Assembly (NCBI GenBank): GCA_003153935.1
Contig: PMCA01000025.1
Coordinates: 1-11,508 of the forward strand
DNA length: 11,508 bases
Reading direction: 5' to 3'
From: Elusimicrobiota bacterium
GTDB taxonomy: Bacteria > CAYTYR01 > UBA6262
How positions within the stretch are numbered: the stretch's first letter is position 1; each line of letters begins with the position of its first letter. The position numbers and the translations under genes are program-made. The notes under the pieces are model-generated. The model was not told where the DNA came from, searched no databases, and saw only the letters and a program-made list of their open reading frames with translations. Of this stretch, positions 1 to 11,349 are shown one piece after another.

Positions 1-988
1 CGCACGCGGTAGCCCTGATCGCTCCATCCATATCCTGCGGCCATCCAGGTACCATGCTGATCGTATTTATGTTAATAGCATAAAAATAGCTATTGTCCGC
101 GCCGATATATAGAACTCCGGCATCCGTATCTATGGTCGGGGAAGAATAGACCACTATATTGTTGCCGATCACATATGGCCAGCCGGATATGATAGCGCCG
201 GTCAGATAATTAAAAGCATAGACCCGGCCGTCATTGCAGGCGGTGAAGATCATGTCGTTATATGGGCAGGGTGATGCCTGCCAGGCCTGCAGGTTAGTAG
301 GATTGCGGTAGCGCCAGACCAGGCTGCCGTCGATCAAGTTCAGGCAATAAAAATAACCATCGTTTGAGCCAACATAAACATAATTTTTATAGATACAGGG
401 CGAAGAGACAACATCATTGCCGGTAGTGTAGCTCCAGATCAGACCTCCATCGGAGGCGCGAATACAATAAACCTTATTGTCATTACAACCGAATACCACC
501 CGGCTCTTGTCTATCGCCGGCGAGGAATCTATCGCATCCCCGGTAGTGAAATACCATTTCTCCGTCATCTGCCGGGCCACAATATGCTGGGGGAAGCTAT
601 AACTTGTTCTCTCCGGGCAGTACTTGAACATTGGCCAGTTCCCCAGCAGTATCCTGACTTTGAGGGTCCTTTGCGCTCCTTTATAGGTACCCACGGATTT
701 TAACTGTACCGTACCGCCATCGCCGTCTACCAGAGTAACGGTAAAACTGCCGCCGTTAAAACTCATGGTCGTCCCGCTGCGCCAGCTGGAATCATAATCC
801 AATTGCGGCAGGGACCAGCTGATGCCGGCCTCCGCCATATATAGTGCGGCCAGTGAATTCTCCGAACTACCAGCCGACCGGACATCGGTAGTCAGGATAT
901 TAATGAACAACAGTCCCAACAACAGTACAAAAACAATTATGCCGATGGCCATTATTAGTATTGCGCCGCGTTGTTCTCTCAATTTCAT
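1..988 (-). CDS. PilX-like minor pilin fused to a PQQ-type beta-propeller (3' end outside window)
   Basis: The frame is open from the ATG at 988 to the window edge (329 codons), so the C-terminus is missing. Residues 1-8 form a short basic leader ending in Gly8. A hydrophobic helix follows (about 9-33), then the A-L-Y-M-A-E-A-G-I stretch (48-56) typical of PilX N-terminal domains. Position +5 of the mature protein is Met13, not Glu, as in PilX/GspK-type tip minor pilins. A small beta-rich pilin part runs to about 115. From about 146 there are at least four repeats of about 40 residues with the pattern S-S-P-x-I, V-Y-x-G, D/N-G, Y-x-(L/F), G-x-x-x-W, as in PQQ/BamB-like propellers. The start lies 9 nt after the PilW-like stop, with AGGGG upstream. 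The likely role is a tip minor pilin carrying a propeller, comparable to PilX plus PilY1. The repeats alone do not show that PQQ is bound. Confidence 0.85.
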   Translation of the reverse strand, partial: MKLREQRGAILIMAIGIIVFVLLLGLLFINILTTDVRSAGSSENSLAALYMAEAGISWSLPQLDYDSSWRSGTTMSFNGGSFTVTLVDGDGGTVQLKSVGTYKGAQRTLKVRILLGNWPMFKYCPERTSYSFPQHIVARQMTEKWYFTTGDAIDSSPAIDKSRVVFGCNDNKVYCIRASDGGLIWSYTTGNDVVSSPCIYKNYVYVGSNDGYFYCLNLIDGSLVWRYRNPTNLQAWQASPCPYNDMIFTACNDGRVYAFNYLTGAIISGWPYVIGNNIVVYSSPTIDTDAGVLYIGADNSYFYAININTISMVPGWPQDMDGAIRATAC

Positions 989-2630: not shown

Positions 2631-3374
2631 CTATTTTTTTATAAAGATCCGGAACTTGGCCAGGCCCATTTTTTGCAGCAGGAATTTACCCAGCGTGGCG
2701 AGGGTGGCCAGCCCGTAAATACTGGAGTTAACGAAATTTATCGATGAGGCCTCTTTGAAGTAGCGCGCCGGGACCGGGGTTTCTCCCAGGCGGAAGCCGA
2801 AATAAACCGCGGACACCAGGAATTCCGTGTCAAAGACGAAATTATCCGAATTGTTCCGCCAGGGAATGGTCTCCAGCACTTCGCGCCGGTAAGCCCGGAA
2901 CCCGGTGTGGAATTCGCTGAGATTCTGACCGAGAAAAATATTTTCCAGCAGGGTCAGGAAACGGTTACTGATATATTTATATAAGGGCATGCCGCCGGCC
3001 AGGGCCTCGGCGCGGGTCCTGATACGCGAGCCCAGCATGACGTCATAGCGGCCTTCGGTTATCGGTCTGATCATATTAGGTATCAGCGTGGCGTCATACT
3101 GGTAATCCGGGTGCAGCATGACCACGATATCCGCGCCTTGTTCCAGGGCTTTCTCGTAGCAGGTTTTCTGGTTGCCGCCATAGCCCTTATTTTTTTCATG
3201 GGTATAAACCTGCAATCCCAACTCCCTGGCCACCTGCACGGTGTTATCCCGGCTGGCGTCATCCACCACGATGATCGTGTCCACTGTACCAGATGGAATA
3301 TCCAGTACTGTTTTTTTGATGGTTTTTTCCGCGTGATAAGCCGGCATGACCACTATTACCTTCTTTTTTGCCAA
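2631..3374 (-). CDS. GT2 family glycosyltransferase, polyprenyl-phosphate sugar synthase type
   Basis: A 247-residue GT-A fold protein. It starts with a basic N-terminus and the first strand V-I-V-V-M-P-A-Y (6-13). D-D-A-S (38-41) binds the nucleotide-sugar. N-K-G-Y-G-G-N (62-68) follows. H-P-D-Y-Q-Y-D (88-94) stands where the metal-binding D-x-D usually is, and L-S-E-F-H-T-G-F-R-A-Y (152-162) is a subfamily signature near the catalytic region. The C-terminal tail is hydrophobic and basic but lacks clear paired membrane helices, unlike CsbB-type enzymes. The likely reaction is transfer of a sugar from a nucleotide donor to a polyprenyl phosphate at the cytoplasmic membrane. The start is TTG; an in-frame TAA lies three codons upstream, and the next ATG (residue 10) would remove the first strand. 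AGGGGAT upstream lies in the end of the preceding gene. It is in an operon with three YfhO-family genes that could use its product. The sugar is unknown. Confidence 0.85.
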   Translation of the reverse strand: MAKKKVIVVMPAYHAEKTIKKTVLDIPSGTVDTIIVVDDASRDNTVQVARELGLQVYTHEKNKGYGGNQKTCYEKALEQGADIVVMLHPDYQYDATLIPNMIRPITEGRYDVMLGSRIRTRAEALAGGMPLYKYISNRFLTLLENIFLGQNLSEFHTGFRAYRREVLETIPWRNNSDNFVFDTEFLVSAVYFGFRLGETPVPARYFKEASSINFVNSSIYGLATLATLGKFLLQKMGLAKFRIFIKK

Positions 3375-3380
3375 TTTGAT

Positions 3381-5711
3381 TTATCCCCTTTCGCTTGTTT
3401 TGAGCGCCCTGGCCAGGACCAGGGTTAAAGATATCATTAACACCAGGAAAGCCCCCAGGCTCCAGGCTAATCCCGTCGGCCGATAGGTAAAAATTATCTC
3501 TGACGGCCCGGCTGGTATGGGTACCATCCGGAAAATATAATCCGCATCGTTAATAACGGCGTTCACGCCGTTGACCGTAGCCCGCCAACCGGGATAATTA
3601 TAATCGTACAAGACCAGGAATCCAGGTTGGGCGGCGGCAGTCTGCAGTACCACCCTGTTCGTATCATAGGAAGTTATCCGGACCGGTTTGGGGACCGGTT
3701 GGACATCCGTGCTGTTCGCTTCTTCCTGCGCCTCGGGCAGGTCGGCAACCATCTCCACCTCCGGCCTAAAATCCCTGGACGCTATCTGCGTAAGCGTCCC
3801 TTCAGTCGAACTACGGCGCAGAATGCGCCGTATGACCGCTGCTCGTGGCTGAACCCTCTTATTTTCATAAACATTCAGTGAACCCATGCGGGCCACCAGT
3901 CCCATATTATTCTCCCGGAGCTCTCTCCGGGTAAAAATGTAGCGTATGCCCAGCATATCGGCCAGACGGCTGTCCGAAAAATTATTCTGCGTCATTAAAA
4001 TACTGTGGAAATTATCAATTTTCTTCAAGACGATGGAATCGTAAGCTTCAGCGTCAAAGAAATGATAAGGCAATCCCATCTGGGTCAATAGCGGCAGTTT
4101 CTCGCTGATCAAGTCCGCAATGGTAAGAGAGTTTTTATCAGCTTCTTCGGGGTGGAACCCGATCCTATTATTAAAGAGATAGCGCTGGTAACCAAGATTC
4201 TTCGCCAGGAAAGACACAACCTGAGGGCGATCACGATAAAAACCGGTTTGCAATACAGGCTCAGCGCCAAAGCTGACATAAGCGGCATTGCATCCTATCA
4301 ACAAGCAGATTAAACCCTGTCCCCAATGACCCGCCAGGCGTTTTCTTAGCAGTAAAACCACCAATAAGCCAAGCAAGGATAACCACTGCCAGAAACAATC
4401 CGTCAATATTTTCGGCAAATATAAATCGTATAATTTTTGCCGGCCAGCCGGGTCCAGGTGCGGCAAATAGGATTGGGCCAGCCAGGGTAACCAATGACCC
4501 CGCGCCAGGAAAACCGCTAAAAACCCGGCTCCCAACGCCAACAATAACGCGACTATTTTGCGCTTATTCATATTACTCTGCTGGCCGTCCTGCCAAACTG
4601 CTTCCAGTCCCAGCGCCGCCAGCACCGCCACGGCTAATTGCACCAGCAAATAGAATTTAATCGGATAACGGATCAGGTTGAACACCGGGAAGATCTTAAA
4701 GAACCAGTAATGTACCGGCGTAAAGTTGCCCAGGGACCAGAATAAACCCATCCCGCCGAGCAGCACAAAAAAACCCGCCCAACTTCGCCGTTGCTTATTC
4801 TGGAACGAGAATAGCATTAAAACTAACGGCAAGGCGCCGAGGTATACATCACGCAGCCAGGGTTGCCTGAACCAGGTTTTCGCGGCCGTAAATTCCCAGC
4901 GAAAGTGCGGCAGTAAGGTTCCCACCAATTCCAGCGGGTGCATGGACCACATGGCGATATTAGCATAGGCCGGGGAGGTGTCCCTGACCGACAGGTTGAG
5001 CAGCTCCCGCAACGGGATAAGTTGCGGCAAGATCAGCAGGCTGGTTACGAACAACCCGGCGGCCAAGCGGGAAAAACCGGCTACGTATCCGGACGGACGG
5101 CGCCATAGACAAAACAGGACCAGGACCAGTACATTCATATACATTATTTCCGGTTGGCCGCCGTAGAACTCAAAAGCCAGTACGACCCCCACCAAACCGG
5201 TCCAGAGATAATTGCTTTTCAGGCTATACTGGAAAAACAACACCACAAAACCCACCCAGACTGCCGCCGTCAGAGTAGTTAATAAATTTATGGTTGAAGG
5301 CAAATAACCGCTGTAACAAAACAGTAAGGCGCCGGCCAGGCAGTTCCAGGGCTTAATGTCCATACTCTTTAGCAGTAAATATATCCCCACCCCGCCGAGC
5401 AAAAAATGCAGCAGGAAAAAATACTTAAAGGCGGGAAAGAACGGGAAAAGGAACGTTATCAGGTTGACCGGGTACAGCAGAGCATGCTGCGAGGTCGCCC
5501 AAAACGGGGCCCCGGCGGAGACATAAGGATTCCAAAAAGGGAAAATCCCCCTCTGCAAATTCTCCGCGGCGAAGAAATGCAACGGCTGGTAGTAACGGAT
5601 TATATCACGATAGAAAAACAGCACATCCTGGGAAATCAGCTCATAGAAAAAAACCATCCAGGCCAGCAACAATCCCAGCAGATAATAGCCGTCTTCCTTT
5701 TTAAGTTTCAT
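3381..5711 (-). CDS. YfhO-family GT-C-like membrane protein (third of three)
   Basis: A 776-residue polytopic protein. Helix 1 (about 9-26) is followed by an outer loop with R-D-I-I-R-Y-Y-Q-P (35-43; Asp36 is the candidate GT-C catalytic acid) and F-P-F-W-N-P (57-62). Further family motifs are N-L-L-T-T-L (142-147), G-Q-P-E-I (185-189) and, later, I-R-Y-P-I-K-F. After roughly a dozen membrane helices there is a soluble domain from about 478 to 745. It holds Y-D-S-I, L-G-I-R-Y, Y-P-G-W and an A-G-P-S-E-I-I-F-T-Y-R-P strand, and a final membrane helix closes the protein. Characterised YfhO proteins (Bacillus, Listeria homologues) move sugars from undecaprenyl-phosphate carriers to teichoic acids outside the membrane. 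Here the acceptor is unknown. The ATG overlaps the stop of the preceding paralogue (ATGA), and the next gene, a GT2, begins 6 nt after the stop. It is closer to the first paralogue than to the second around the first loop. Confidence 0.83.
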   Translation of the reverse strand: MKLKKEDGYYLLGLLLAWMVFFYELISQDVLFFYRDIIRYYQPLHFFAAENLQRGIFPFWNPYVSAGAPFWATSQHALLYPVNLITFLFPFFPAFKYFFLLHFLLGGVGIYLLLKSMDIKPWNCLAGALLFCYSGYLPSTINLLTTLTAAVWVGFVVLFFQYSLKSNYLWTGLVGVVLAFEFYGGQPEIMYMNVLVLVLFCLWRRPSGYVAGFSRLAAGLFVTSLLILPQLIPLRELLNLSVRDTSPAYANIAMWSMHPLELVGTLLPHFRWEFTAAKTWFRQPWLRDVYLGALPLVLMLFSFQNKQRRSWAGFFVLLGGMGLFWSLGNFTPVHYWFFKIFPVFNLIRYPIKFYLLVQLAVAVLAALGLEAVWQDGQQSNMNKRKIVALLLALGAGFLAVFLARGHWLPWLAQSYLPHLDPAGRQKLYDLYLPKILTDCFWQWLSLLGLLVVLLLRKRLAGHWGQGLICLLIGCNAAYVSFGAEPVLQTGFYRDRPQVVSFLAKNLGYQRYLFNNRIGFHPEEADKNSLTIADLISEKLPLLTQMGLPYHFFDAEAYDSIVLKKIDNFHSILMTQNNFSDSRLADMLGIRYIFTRRELRENNMGLVARMGSLNVYENKRVQPRAAVIRRILRRSSTEGTLTQIASRDFRPEVEMVADLPEAQEEANSTDVQPVPKPVRITSYDTNRVVLQTAAAQPGFLVLYDYNYPGWRATVNGVNAVINDADYIFRMVPIPAGPSEIIFTYRPTGLAWSLGAFLVLMISLTLVLARALKTSERG

Positions 5712-7882
5712 TTATCCTGGCTCCAGGCTTTCAACTCCCTTAGGAAGTAACCGATACTTGTTAATATCGCTAGCAGCGTTACCAACAATGCGGGGTAGAA
5801 ATAATCGGGCCGGTAAGTGAATATTATTTCGTGCTTCCCTGCCGGCAGATCTATCCCCCTGAACATATAAAAGGCAGGGAAGATACGCGCCGGCCCGCCG
5901 TCAACGCTGGCGCGCCAACCCGAATAAAAAGTATCGGTTAGCACCAGGGTTGAATCAGGCCCGCTCTCCGCCTCGATCGTTACCCGGTTGAGGTCATAGT
6001 GGATAATCCTGGCCGTCGTGCCATAAGATATATGCTCCTGCATCCTGTGCATGGTGCCGGCCAGATCAGCCGTGACCACCTCTTTATTGACCAGGAAAAC
6101 CCTGGGGAAAGCGTTATTATTTTTATAAATTTGCCAAACGTTCTGCTTCACCAGGTCAAAACCCGGGCTGGAAACCGGCCATAAGCTAACTAAATATTTA
6201 ACCCCTAACAAGTCCAGAATATGGCTGGAGGCCGGTCCAGGCTGGAAACTGGTCAGCCAGTAGAAAGAATAAAAATTATTCAAATAAATTGATTCATAGC
6301 CGCGCGCCACAAATTCATGTCCGACCATGGCCATGTTAGGCACGGACTCCCAGAGAGATTGGTCCAGCACTGTGTATTCTACCTGATAATCCCTGGTATC
6401 CTGGGCATTGCCGGTCAGGACTGCATAGGTTTTCGGAGTGAAAGCGTAGCGGTTGTAGGAGAGTGTATCCAGCTGTTGCTTGAAGTCCCCCCTATGTTCT
6501 ACGAATGATAACAGCGCCAGTTTCTGAGTGTTAAAGGTATGGACCGCGCTGCCGCAGAATAAAATAGCGATCAAGCCGGCCTGTCCGTAGCCCTGCCACC
6601 GTGATGGCAGACGGCACAACGCCATCCCCCCTAAAAACAGGGAAAATATGCCAAGGTCTAAAAATATTACCGGCCAGGACAAAAATCCATATCCGGCCAG
6701 CATAAACATTCCTGCCGCCAATAACAATATACCGCTTTTTTTATATTGTTCCTGATACTGGAACCAATGATGCCAGCCGGCGGCCGCCAGTAAAGCCAAA
6801 CCCCAGTTAAAAAGGAAGAAAAATTTGACGGGGTAACGAATAGCTTTTAACCCGGGTAATACCCAGGACAGGGCCCGATAAGCAAAAGTATATTTCCCGA
6901 ACGAAAGCAATAATCCCAGGACCGCCACCGCCAGGATAGCCAGCCAGGTTTTTTTCGTTTTACCGGAAAGCAATCCGCAACCCGCCAGGAAAACACCGCT
7001 GCCGCCGAAAAAAATATTCTTCAACCATTCCTGGTTATCCGCGGCGGCTGGCTGGCTGAACCAGGAACTAAATAGGCTCTTGAGTTGGCCAGGATATAAG
7101 GACCAAAAAGTTTGCGATTCCCAGGTGCTATAAGCTTCTCGGTTGGAATGTTTAAGCAATTGCCAGAAAGGCAGTAATTCGAACAATATAAATAACACCA
7201 CCAGGATCACTGTGGTGCCCAGGATCTTGAAGGTAGCCGCATATCGCCCGGGGCTGGCCAGCAAACCATAGATCAGCAAGACTAATATGGAGAGATACAA
7301 TATTTCCGGCTGGCCTGCGAAAAATTCCAGGGACAAGCAACACGCTGTCAATAATGCCCAGCCCCACCACTTGTCTTTTTGCTCAAGGGCCTTTATAAAG
7401 AACAGGCAAACAAAACTCAGCCAGGCCGAAGCGGCCAGAGTCGTTAGCAGGTTAACCAATGAGCTCATGACCCCGCCAAAACAGTAGAGCACGGACGCCG
7501 CCAGGCAGGCCAATGGCGGTAAGCGGAAGCCGCGTAATAATAAATACAGCCCCAGACCGGCCAGGAAAAAAGGAATAAGGAAAACGATTTTAAAAGCGGC
7601 TTCAAAGGGAAATAAAAAAGTTATCAAGGAAACCGGATACAACATACCGTTCTGGAGGGCTGCCAGGAAAGGTTGCCCGCAGGATATAAACGGGTTCCAG
7701 AACGGGAATGTGCCCCGCTGGAGGCTGGTAGCCGCCAGCTGGTAAGCTGGACGATAATAATGAGATATATCCCGGGAATACAAGGTAGGTTCCGGGAGCA
7801 AAACAGGCGAGAAGAATAATACCAGTAACACCGCCAGCGCCAATAAAGCGCGCAGGTCTCTTATGGTGAGTTTACCGTTCAT
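5708..7882 (-). CDS. YfhO-family GT-C-like membrane protein (second of three)
   Basis: A 724-residue polytopic protein, the shortest of the three paralogues. Helix 1 (about 11-29) leads to Y-S-R-D-I-S-H-Y-Y-R-P (35-45; Asp38 in the catalytic-acid position) and then F-P-F-W-N-P-F. The family motifs N-L-L-T-T-L, G-Q-P-E-I-L and I-R-Y-P-V-K-F are all present. The outer domain carries G-Y-E-S-I-Y-L-N-N, L-G-V-K-Y-L and a Y-S-G-W variant of Y-P-G-W. It ends in A-G-K-H-E-I-I-F-T-Y-R-P and one last helix. It differs from its neighbours in the loop after F-W-N-P (Q-N-G-M-L-Y-P instead of Q-H-A-L-L-Y-P) and in a shorter outer domain, so it may recognise another sugar or acceptor. The ATG comes 2 nt after the preceding stop, with AAGG 7 nt upstream, and translation is probably coupled. 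Confidence 0.83.
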   Translation of the reverse strand: MNGKLTIRDLRALLALAVLLVLFFSPVLLPEPTLYSRDISHYYRPAYQLAATSLQRGTFPFWNPFISCGQPFLAALQNGMLYPVSLITFLFPFEAAFKIVFLIPFFLAGLGLYLLLRGFRLPPLACLAASVLYCFGGVMSSLVNLLTTLAASAWLSFVCLFFIKALEQKDKWWGWALLTACCLSLEFFAGQPEILYLSILVLLIYGLLASPGRYAATFKILGTTVILVVLFILFELLPFWQLLKHSNREAYSTWESQTFWSLYPGQLKSLFSSWFSQPAAADNQEWLKNIFFGGSGVFLAGCGLLSGKTKKTWLAILAVAVLGLLLSFGKYTFAYRALSWVLPGLKAIRYPVKFFFLFNWGLALLAAAGWHHWFQYQEQYKKSGILLLAAGMFMLAGYGFLSWPVIFLDLGIFSLFLGGMALCRLPSRWQGYGQAGLIAILFCGSAVHTFNTQKLALLSFVEHRGDFKQQLDTLSYNRYAFTPKTYAVLTGNAQDTRDYQVEYTVLDQSLWESVPNMAMVGHEFVARGYESIYLNNFYSFYWLTSFQPGPASSHILDLLGVKYLVSLWPVSSPGFDLVKQNVWQIYKNNNAFPRVFLVNKEVVTADLAGTMHRMQEHISYGTTARIIHYDLNRVTIEAESGPDSTLVLTDTFYSGWRASVDGGPARIFPAFYMFRGIDLPAGKHEIIFTYRPDYFYPALLVTLLAILTSIGYFLRELKAWSQDK

Positions 7883-7884
7883 AG

Positions 7885-10218
7885 TTAAACCTTTTTACCA
7901 AAATAAATTATCAGCGCCAAATAGCTTAGTATGCTTATGGCCAAAACCAGGCTGAAATTAGTGGGCCAGTATCGGAATTCAACTTCCCTGGTCCCCGCCG
8001 GCAAGTGAACCGCCCTCAACATATAGTCGGCCCGGTACAGCCGGCCCGGTACCTTATCAATACATACCTGCCAACCGGGATAATAAGTATCAGCCAGCAA
8101 TAACCAGGCCGGAGCGGTAACTTGCGTAAGCAAAGTTAAAGAGTTGGTATTATCCGTGACCTGAGTCACCTGGGTCACCTCCCCTTCACGGTTGCCGGTT
8201 CGTTCGTTATCTGCCCCGGTAGCGGCTCCGTTGATCACCAATTCGCTTAAAGGATCAAAATCTTTTGCCAGGAATCGTTCATCAACCTGCGTCTGGTCCG
8301 GCAGGAAAGATACCTGGTCATAAAAGCGAGCCCGCTTAAGCGGATGTTCATTGCCGTAGGTATCGATATAATCCGCCCTTACTTTGGTAAATTGTTTTAT
8401 TGGTAAGGGATAAAAAGATAACAGATATTTTACTCCCAGCAGGTCCAACACGGGCAGAGATTGCTTCAGGGGATGGGAAGCCAGAAAATTGGTCAAGTGC
8501 TCATTGTTTATCAATTTAATTGATTCATACCCGTCCAAATTGTAGAAATGATAGATATTGCCTAAATTAGGTAACAGTGATTTTTGCCTTTTATAAAATT
8601 CCTCACGGAAATCGATCTCCGGGTATACCGCTATATCTCTTACTACATCCTGCCCGCTCTTAGGACTGAGGTACATCCGCTGACTCCCTAAATTTGCCAT
8701 CATGAACTCGGCGTTACCGGTCGGAAGACGGTACAGATCCGGTTCGACGGTCGGTTCCAAACGGTAACTGCCGTAAAATAAACACAGCAACATTAGCAGG
8801 AGAAATAAAGATTTGAACAACCAGGCCGCAAGGAATCCCCTGTTCCTGGCCCAGAAAAGTACCGCCGCGCTGGTCGTCAGCAAAATAGCGTAAAACAGGT
8901 CATGGAAAAGCTGCGGTACCTTATGGTAGATCAAATATTTCTCAAAAGTCGAGGCCGAGGGTAAATACCGTTTAAGGAAATAAATTACGCTTGGGCTTTT
9001 CTCGGCAGCAAAAAGCCAGTACGCCAGCAGCAGCAGGCCGGCCCAGCCAAACATTAACAGCGGCCGGACTTTGCCGGCATTTCGCCGGGCCAGGGTTTCC
9101 ACCCCCATCGCCACCAGTGGCGCCACCGCGAAGAAAAACAGAGCCAGGTATTTAACCGGATAACGTATCAGGTTAAATCCCGGGAGGTATTGAAAAACAA
9201 AATTCAGCGCTGGAATATGACGCCCAAAAGACAGCAGCAAGCCCGAAATAAGCAGTAAAAGAAAATATTTTTTGGCCGGGTGCGGACTGGTAAAGCCGAA
9301 ACCCAGCAAGAGTATGGGCACTGAACCCAAATATGCGGAACGCAACCAGCCCTGTCCGAACCAGTTGTTCGAACCGGCCATGAAATCAAATGTGAAGCTT
9401 GGCAGCAGGAAATTCAGCGTCTCCAAAGGGTGAAAGGACCAAACCAGTATATTAGCGGTAGTCGTGGTTTCACGTATGGAATTCTTCACCAACTCGATAA
9501 AGGGGATGATCTGGGCGCTGACCAGTATCAAACTGAAAATAAAAGACGCCAGCAGCCACCCGGCCCGGGAGGGGAATAACGTCAGGGCGCGATTACGTAT
9601 GGAGTCATATAACAGATAGGACAGTAATAATAAAAAGCTCAGGAACATTATTTCCGGCTGGCCGCTGAGTAACTGCAATCCCAATACCAGGCTTATTAAC
9701 AGCAGGTATTTCCAATCCCGGCTCTCCAGGGCTCTGTCGTATAGTAATAATAGGAAAGGGAACCAGACCACGGCCGATAAGGTGGTCACCAGGTTAAGCA
9801 TTGATACCAGGTAGCCGCTGAAAACGAAAACCAGCGTGCCCACGGTTACGGAAAAACGCGCTAAACCCAGGCGGCGCAGAAGTAAATACATACCCAGGCC
9901 GGCCAATAAAAAATGTACGATAAAATAATAACTAAAACCGGAATAAAAGGGGAAAAGATAGCATAAGATGCTAGCCGGGTAGAGTAGCGCGTGTTGCAGG
10001 GAAGCAAAGAACGGGTAACCGCTGAACATATATGGGTTCCAGAACGGGAATCGGCCCGACAGCAAACTTTCCGTGGCAAAAAAATGGGCCGGATAGTAAT
10101 ACCGGCCGATGTCCCGGAAACAAAATAATTTACCGCCGAAAATATTATCGTTAAAAAAAACGATCACGCTCAAGAAGATAGCGCCGATAAACAGCAGGTC
10201 CCGCCGATTGATTTTCAT
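7885..10218 (-). CDS. YfhO-family GT-C-like membrane protein (first of three)
   Basis: A 777-residue polytopic protein and the first gene of the middle transcription unit. Helix 1 (about 8-22) precedes C-F-R-D-I-G-R-Y-Y-Y-P (33-43; Asp36 in the GT-C catalytic position), then F-P-F-W-N-P, N-L-V-T-T-L, G-Q-P-E-I-M and I-R-Y-P-V-K-Y. The outer domain has G-Y-E-S-I-K-L-I-N-N, L-G-V-K-Y-L-L and Y-Y-P-G-W, and a final membrane helix precedes the basic C-terminus. Residues 681-688 are V-T-Q-V-T-Q-V-T, with a third L-T-Q-V-T copy shortly after, where the paralogues have an ordinary strand. There is no Shine-Dalgarno site; an extended -10 element ends 6 nt before the ATG, so a leaderless mRNA is likely. 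Function by family: transfer of a lipid-carried sugar outside the membrane. The acceptor is unknown, but pilin genes lie on both sides of the block. Confidence 0.83.
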   Translation of the reverse strand: MKINRRDLLFIGAIFLSVIVFFNDNIFGGKLFCFRDIGRYYYPAHFFATESLLSGRFPFWNPYMFSGYPFFASLQHALLYPASILCYLFPFYSGFSYYFIVHFLLAGLGMYLLLRRLGLARFSVTVGTLVFVFSGYLVSMLNLVTTLSAVVWFPFLLLLYDRALESRDWKYLLLISLVLGLQLLSGQPEIMFLSFLLLLSYLLYDSIRNRALTLFPSRAGWLLASFIFSLILVSAQIIPFIELVKNSIRETTTTANILVWSFHPLETLNFLLPSFTFDFMAGSNNWFGQGWLRSAYLGSVPILLLGFGFTSPHPAKKYFLLLLISGLLLSFGRHIPALNFVFQYLPGFNLIRYPVKYLALFFFAVAPLVAMGVETLARRNAGKVRPLLMFGWAGLLLLAYWLFAAEKSPSVIYFLKRYLPSASTFEKYLIYHKVPQLFHDLFYAILLTTSAAVLFWARNRGFLAAWLFKSLFLLLMLLCLFYGSYRLEPTVEPDLYRLPTGNAEFMMANLGSQRMYLSPKSGQDVVRDIAVYPEIDFREEFYKRQKSLLPNLGNIYHFYNLDGYESIKLINNEHLTNFLASHPLKQSLPVLDLLGVKYLLSFYPLPIKQFTKVRADYIDTYGNEHPLKRARFYDQVSFLPDQTQVDERFLAKDFDPLSELVINGAATGADNERTGNREGEVTQVTQVTDNTNSLTLLTQVTAPAWLLLADTYYPGWQVCIDKVPGRLYRADYMLRAVHLPAGTREVEFRYWPTNFSLVLAISILSYLALIIYFGKKV

Positions 10219-10311: not shown

Positions 10312-10809
10312 TTACCACAGGTTATAGCATGTGCCCCAGCTGGTATCGGAAGGAGCGCCTGCAGTTGTGTCTGCAACCTTGTAGTTCGCGCATACACGGC
10401 CAGTCTTGGAATCATAAGCCCAACCGCCACCGCCGGAAATCAAAGCATCGCGAGCAGCTCCGTTATCAGACGGACTCATTGAGCCACTGACAGGATCTTG
10501 AGCTTTACTGCGATAGAACGGGTCGATAGGAATACGTTCCAGGAATGTCTTGCTATCTACGTCAGCAGCGGTCCCCTGCCACAGATCGTCCAGGGTCGTA
10601 GGATAGCTGTTGCTCTTGGAGTTCGCTTTGTAGGTCTCCAGCGAAGCTCTGATGGTACGCAGGTTACCTTTCAGGTTTGATTCTTTGCTTTCCTTGGTGG
10701 CACCGGCAAATCTGGCGATAACGATAGCTGCCAAAATACCTAAGATGACGATAACGATTAACAATTCCACCAGGGTAAAGCCCTTCTTACTTCTTAACTT
10801 ACTAATCAT
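10312..10809 (-). CDS. Type IV pilin, GspG-like (third of three tandem copies)
   Basis: A 165-residue prepilin. The leader M-I-S-K-L-R-S-K-K-G is cut before Phe11, followed by F-T-L-V-E-L (Glu15 at +5) and the classic I-V-I-L-G-I-L-A-A-I helix. The alpha1-C part has N-L-R-T-I-R-A-S-L-E-T-Y, and a GspG-like loop has Y-P-T-T-L-D-D-L-W and L-E-R-I-P-I-D-P-F. The C-terminal G-G-W-A-Y-D, G-R-V-C-A-N-Y and D-T-S-W-G motifs are shared with the neighbouring copies. Cys140 and Cys161 could close a disulfide loop of 20 residues. AAAGGAG lies 9 nt before the ATG. The gap of 39 nt to the upstream pilin holds no convincing promoter, so the gene is probably cotranscribed with that copy and ends at the strong terminator. 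It is a major pilin candidate; a GspG pseudopilin is less likely given the PilV/W/X set. Confidence 0.9.
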   Translation of the reverse strand: MISKLRSKKGFTLVELLIVIVILGILAAIVIARFAGATKESKESNLKGNLRTIRASLETYKANSKSNSYPTTLDDLWQGTAADVDSKTFLERIPIDPFYRSKAQDPVSGSMSPSDNGAARDALISGGGGWAYDSKTGRVCANYKVADTTAGAPSDTSWGTCYNLW

Positions 10810-10848: not shown

Positions 10849-11349
10849 TTACCAAATGTTGTATTCTGACCCCCAGCTGGTATCCAGCGGGTGGCCACAA
10901 GTCGTATCAGTAGAGTAATAGTTGGCGCAAACGCGACCGGTTATGCTGTCATAAGCCCAGCCGCCGCCCGTACCGCTGATCTTCGCGTCCCTTTGCAGAG
11001 CCGTATCAATCGGGCTAAAATCGGTAGTAGCCAAAAATACGGATTTGCTGCGATAGAACGGGTCGATAGGAATACGTTCCAGGAATGTCTTGCTATCCAC
11101 GTCCGAATTGGTCCCGTTCCAGAGATCATTCAGGGTCGGAGGATAGCTGTTGCTCTTGGAGTTCGCTTTGTAGGTCTCCAGCGAAGCCCTGATGGTACGC
11201 AGGTTGCCCTTCAGGTTTGATTCCTTGCTTTCCTTGGTGGCACCGGCGAACCTGGCAATAACGATGGCTGCCAAAATACCTAAGATGACGATAACGATTA
11301 ATAATTCCACCAGGGTAAAGCCCTTTTTGCTTCTCAGCTTTGCTAACAT
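10849..11349 (-). CDS. Type IV pilin, GspG-like (second of three tandem copies)
   Basis: A 166-residue prepilin. Residues 4-70 are identical to the next copy, including the K-K-G cleavage site, F-T-L-V-E-L with Glu15 at +5, and the Y-P loop. The proteins diverge after about residue 95, in the surface-exposed C-terminal part. Here that part carries S-V-F-L-A-T-T-D-F-S-P and a different end, S-E-Y-N-I-W. Cys141 (G-R-V-C-A-N-Y) and Cys151 (T-T-C-G) leave only nine residues between them, a much smaller possible disulfide loop than in the sister copies. The Shine-Dalgarno GGGAGGTGA, 6 nt before the ATG, is near perfect, and a strong promoter lies upstream. It is probably the best expressed gene in the window and a major pilin candidate. 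Confidence 0.9.
   Translation of the reverse strand: MLAKLRSKKGFTLVELLIVIVILGILAAIVIARFAGATKESKESNLKGNLRTIRASLETYKANSKSNSYPPTLNDLWNGTNSDVDSKTFLERIPIDPFYRSKSVFLATTDFSPIDTALQRDAKISGTGGGWAYDSITGRVCANYYSTDTTCGHPLDTSWGSEYNIW

Follow-up and report, generated by a model that had tools for sequence, protein, structure and literature searches.

A capping minor pilin of the PilX/GspK type from a poorly studied bacterial lineage, encoded at one end of the window (the whole contig G000:C30, 11508 bases), carries an eight-bladed propeller of the PQQ/BamB type in the same polypeptide chain. The fusion is conserved, and the protein is a new variation on modular pilins whose nearest known counterpart is ComZ of Thermus thermophilus. 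No description of a propeller inside a minor pilin was found in the open-access literature that was searched. The reading preferred here, with a probability of about 0.72, is that the propeller is placed between the last two strands of the pilin sheet, so that a tip domain is fastened to the capping pilin in cis.

The propeller pilin gene and its surroundings

The gene is found at positions 2 to 988 on the minus strand, where a frame of 329 amino acids runs from 988 to 2 without reaching a stop codon before the contig ends. It begins with the class III (prepilin) leader MKLREQRG (965-988, minus strand) followed by the mature start AILIM, which lacks Glu at position 5. Thereafter comes a pilin module in which a long helix at the N-terminus is followed by three predicted strands (residues approximately 9-116; 641-964, minus strand), and then the first four blades of the propeller including a WPMFK...PERT lead-in (2-640, minus strand). 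The last 148 codons were recovered from the same genome on another contig (G000:C29:1-447, plus strand) and encode the remaining blades (5-8) and the final SWRD tail. The two contigs do not overlap at the break in the gene, and about 31 codons are lost between them. The estimate in the earlier note of at least four propeller repeats agrees with four blades in the window part and eight in the complete orthologue. The PilX_N profile (PF14341) matches residues 7-56 with an E value of 2.7e-4 and 21.3 bits, which is below the curated cut-off of 25.5, and a profile built from the pilin part retrieves PF14341 proteins in other genomes. Both propeller profiles in the frame after the pilin part are above cut-off (PF13570, E 2.2e-40; PF13360, E 9.2e-16).

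A gene that is cut by a contig end might be suspected of being two genes joined by a sequencing or assembly error, but the same in-frame fusion is intact as a single open reading frame on long contigs of G001 (504 amino acids) and G003 (508 amino acids), which belong to the family of the window genome, and on a contig of G004 (487 amino acids, about 37% identical), which belongs to another family of the same class. These genomes are metagenome-assembled. The pilin and the propeller are therefore one gene; the intact orthologues, found in three genomes that represent two families, rule out an artefact, and the fusion noticed earlier is real. The copy in a fifth genome of the class, G002, is also broken at a contig end and is not counted as a full copy because its two pieces differ where they overlap. 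In that genome an additional gene for a 526-amino-acid multi-pass membrane protein is located between the propeller-pilin tail and pilM (G002:C48; L035:710-2290).

Upstream of the propeller-pilin gene are genes for a FimT/GspH-like (2101-2583), a PilV/GspI-like (1586-2104) and a PilW/GspJ-like (998-1516) minor pilin, in that order and all on the minus strand. Gene calls and profile matches thus bear out the FimT/PilV/PilW/PilX-like order that had been read from the letters, with the propeller within the protein at the PilX position, fourth in the H-I-J-K series. The order of these four genes followed by pilM is the same in G001, G003 and G004 and also holds across the gap between the two contigs of the window genome.

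The window contains further pilin-related genes. Two major-pilin-like genes of the GspG/PilA type are found in tandem (10312-10809 and 10849-11349, minus strand); their first approximately 70 residues are near-identical with divergence past residue 102 or so, and the pair appears to be the result of a recent duplication or gene conversion. Between the major and the minor pilin genes (2631-10218, minus strand) there are three consecutive YfhO-family membrane proteins (776, 724 and 777 amino acids) and a family 2 glycosyltransferase, possibly a cassette for glycosylation of pilins or of the surface. A second minor-pilin cluster is present elsewhere in the same genome (G000:C18, about 94.3-98.1 kb; L038:4275-8138) and includes two PilX-like pilins with other modules and with the C-termini ITWQEVK and VSWQEVR.

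The class III leader and the N-terminal hydrophobic helix are present in the propeller pilin of all five genomes of this class. Position 5 of the mature protein is Glu in the H, I and J pilins and Met or Leu in the K/X pilin in all five, and it is Met in the window protein. Absence of Glu5 is the mark of the capping pilin (PMC12040237, PMC10191384, PMC7541494). The earlier description of a PilX-like minor pilin without Glu at +5 was accurate, given the leader, the PF14341 match below cut-off and the Met at that position, and the gene product is the PilX/GspK-type capping minor pilin of its set. The propeller pilin would consequently be expected at the tip of the filament.

The propeller and a probable closing strand

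Structure prediction had been suggested as a check, and AlphaFold models of two orthologues consist of a pilin part with a long helix and three strands followed by an eight-bladed propeller, with pLDDT mostly 80-95. In structure comparisons, which barely covered the pilin part and had no PilY1 entry among the matches listed, the designed eight-bladed propeller Cake8 (Z 46.3, rmsd 1.4 Å over 315 residues) and BamB (Z approximately 37) were similar to the model. The PilY1 profile (PF05567, T4P_PilY1) gave no match in the window protein at E 0.1. In hhalign comparisons the probability was 71% against a PilY1 alignment and 100% (E 2.6e-45) against a secreted PQQ propeller from the same lineage. 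The domain is a confident eight-bladed propeller of the PQQ/BamB type and does not belong to the family of PilY1. The secreted propeller is a standalone protein in the window genome (G000:C25:21680-22862; L037:5681-6862) with orthologues in G001-G003. It shares the WPMF...HTG lead-in with the inserted domain, and its family is a possible source of the insert.

After the last blade the protein continues in a strand-like tail, …TMTVLTESWRDTF, which in G004 reads GPVNLVNFSWYDRY. The alignment with the standalone propeller spans residues 116-488 only; it covers neither the pilin part nor roughly 16 residues at the C-terminus, hence these final residues are not propeller. A tail with W-x-[E/D/Q], a motif that was chosen after the sequences had been viewed, is found in 16 of 34 other PilX-like proteins compared with 0.9% of random 14-mers, and about half of the PilX-like set is without it. 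In minimal PilX-like pilins (L068, L090, L091 and L094) strand 3 is followed by a short turn and a WRE strand, for example AKRTVKATVRRQDSSLVITSWREVR, and a W/Y-x-E/D tail also closes PilX-like pilins that bear solenoids. Because the minimal pilins pass directly from strand 3 through a turn to the closing strand, the propeller appears to be situated within the last hairpin of the pilin and is probably inserted, not appended. Such an insertion may have been easy since the two termini of a closed propeller ring are close to each other.

When 386 genomes were searched with a profile spanning the pilin and the first blade, the full architecture came up in the five genomes of this class and in no others. 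Partial hits across the border in G192, G302, G008 and others had no propeller repeats when the sequences were read. One genome of another phylum, G367, encodes a PilX-like pilin with an NHL-repeat propeller and the C-terminus LRLVRWEE (L067:1414-2892). As in the window genome, PilV and PilW precede the propeller-bearing PilX-like pilin and PilM, which was assigned by reading the sequence, follows it, but the propeller is of the NHL instead of the PQQ/BamB type. This architecture was not seen in the other four genomes of that phylum that were examined, thus it is apparently an independent case in a single genome. Other PilX-like relatives carry bactofilin-like, DUF4900 and further modules, and this variety suggests that the insertion site accepts many modules. 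The closest published parallel is ComZ, a GspK-like tip pilin whose sheet holds a large solenoid between its last two strands and for which a location at the tip has been proposed (PMC6561018). ComZ binds DNA and carries a solenoid where the window protein has a propeller, and the corresponding insertion in the window protein is deduced from its sequence.

Other readings of the protein

The window protein combines a pilin module and a domain that is not specific to pili in one chain, which is what defines a modular pilin, and modular pilins with an appended domain occur widely (PMC8179133). In Streptococcus sanguinis, PilB and PilC likewise display at the tip a functional domain joined to a minor pilin, but the domains are vWA and lectin and not propellers, and they are appended after the pilin module whereas the propeller is presumably inserted before a closing strand (PMC8179133). 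It is conceivable, if doubtful, that the window protein is a plain bimodular pilin of that kind with a short tail that is merely an unrelated end. The tail has pLDDT values of only 25-33 or thereabouts in both models and is a strand in one and unstructured in the other, while three strands precede the propeller in both; its pairing with the pilin sheet is therefore proposed from sequence together with published models. However, the tail lies outside the propeller homology and is missing from the end of the lineage's standalone propeller. It is conserved in G001, G003 and G004, even where identity falls to 37%, and it resembles the strand with which other PilX-like pilins and PilY1 end. These features argue for a closing strand that would pair with the pilin sheet, and for an inserted propeller.

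The machinery to which the pilin belongs and the activity of the propeller can also be read differently. The H-I-J-K order and the matches to GspH, GspI and GspJ profiles suit a type II secretion system no less than type IV pili, and secretins and pilus-type ATPases occur in more than one set per genome. The protein would then be a minor pseudopilin (GspK) and its propeller would handle secretion substrates and have no part in surface adhesion. This is unlikely because the gene lies directly before genes of the type IV pilus alignment complex, which on C29 are a fused PilM-PilN gene and PilO, and because all five genomes of the class have PilT homologues above cut-off. Secretins are present too, and together with the PilT homologues they make it likely, as far as gene content can tell, that these organisms produce retractile type IV pili. 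That the propeller is a quinoprotein-like enzyme or sensor displayed at the pilus tip is quite improbable. The PQQ/BamB group is broad, and there is a weak score to PQQ dehydrogenases (TIGR03075, E 6.6e-10, far below cut-off), but no dehydrogenase family reaches its cut-off and the proteins that it matches best are designed propellers, YxaL and BamB instead of dehydrogenases. The preferred reading thus remains a capping type IV pilin with an inserted propeller, for which a role as adhesin or sensor may be suggested.

Relation to PilX-PilY1 and meaning for pilus tips

The PilX-PilY1 pair of Pseudomonas and Myxococcus (PMC7541494, PMC11046646, PMC13190605) resembles the window system in several ways. 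Both have the FimU/PilV/PilW/PilX set and a PilX without Glu5, a propeller is located at the tip (a probable location in the present case), and a C-terminal strand follows the propeller, which completes PilX in the published models and has a putative counterpart here, proposed from a matching tail sequence. PilY1 is, however, a separate secreted protein with a type I signal peptide and a seven-bladed propeller of the PF05567 family, whereas the window protein has a prepilin leader and a pilin helix and is a single chain with an eight-bladed PQQ/BamB propeller in which PF05567 was not found. The gene after the propeller pilin is pilM and not pilY1. A profile search for PF05567 found none in the window genome and its four relatives in the class, while seven of the other genomes had matches above cut-off; since the genomes of the class are 88-95% complete, absence of PilY1 is likely but not certain for each genome.

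In predicted complexes a strand of PilY1 is added to PilX (PMC11046646, PMC13190605). A C-terminus of the same kind as the tail of the window protein (…MTVRSWQENY) was found in 28 of 30 distinct PilY1 proteins, compared with 2.6% by chance, but in none of 14 PilX proteins encoded directly upstream of PilY1, all of which end after strand 3 and thus one strand earlier. The proteins counted belong to a single phylum in which PilY1 is frequent, and for the most part to one family, and are not independent events. In other phyla PilY1 has the C-terminal variants YWNEVY, NIYELP and LSWGEG. The second of these resembles LQNVYELP of Myxococcus PilY1.3, a stretch that joins the PilX sheet as an extra strand in the published model (PMC11046646). 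Since the tail motif is shared with PilY1 and missing from the neighbouring PilX, the window protein would unite the shares of PilX and PilY1 on one chain. It does not follow that PilY1 adjoins each short PilX that lacks a closing strand; that generalisation was ruled out by some short PilX-like pilins without the motif for which no PilY1 was found downstream.

The idea of a one-piece PilX-PilY1 put forward in the earlier note holds as an analogy of build and position but not for the propeller itself, which is of the PQQ/BamB type and not that of PilY1. A strict homologous fusion of PilX and PilY1 is ruled out by the wrong propeller family, with no PF05567 match and an hhalign probability of 71%. 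The Rosetta-stone support for a PilX-PilY1 contact that had been claimed is lost, in its strict form, for the same reason, given that both halves of such a fusion must have homologues in the pair. Furthermore, solenoids and an NHL propeller are also accommodated at this site, and the fusion therefore indicates a site of insertion at the tip and not a contact specific to PilY1. There is somewhat better than an even chance that the protein is a natural one-chain replacement of the PilX-PilY1 pair, in which an unrelated propeller took the role at the tip and the closing strand is supplied in cis.

In the mechanism proposed, FimT, PilV, PilW and PilX would form a tip or priming complex of four minor pilins, in which the propeller pilin, lacking Glu5, is the PilX-type cap, and the eight-bladed propeller at the outermost tip would be the surface-contacting and probably adhesive part. 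In the arrangement with two proteins PilX would be one strand short and the C-terminal strand of PilY1 would complete the sheet in trans. The equivalent strand in the window protein would be found behind the propeller on the same chain, and a tip domain fastened in cis in this way might make PilY1 unnecessary.

What is known of the joint between tip pilin and adhesin comes for the most part from predicted complexes, and in these PilX receives a strand from PilY1. Both sides of the joint on one natural chain would give it evolutionary support, and would also provide a single polypeptide that can be crystallised. If the proposal is true, what stays constant in the joint at the tip is the closing strand, and solenoids, NHL propellers, PQQ propellers and PilY1 can replace one another as the tip module that it holds. 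This suggests one rule, a module before a closing W/Y-x-E/D strand, common to PilY1, ComZ-like solenoid pilins and propeller pilins, and the rule could reveal tip proteins in genomes without PilY1. The fusion suggests how tip domains are attached to pili.
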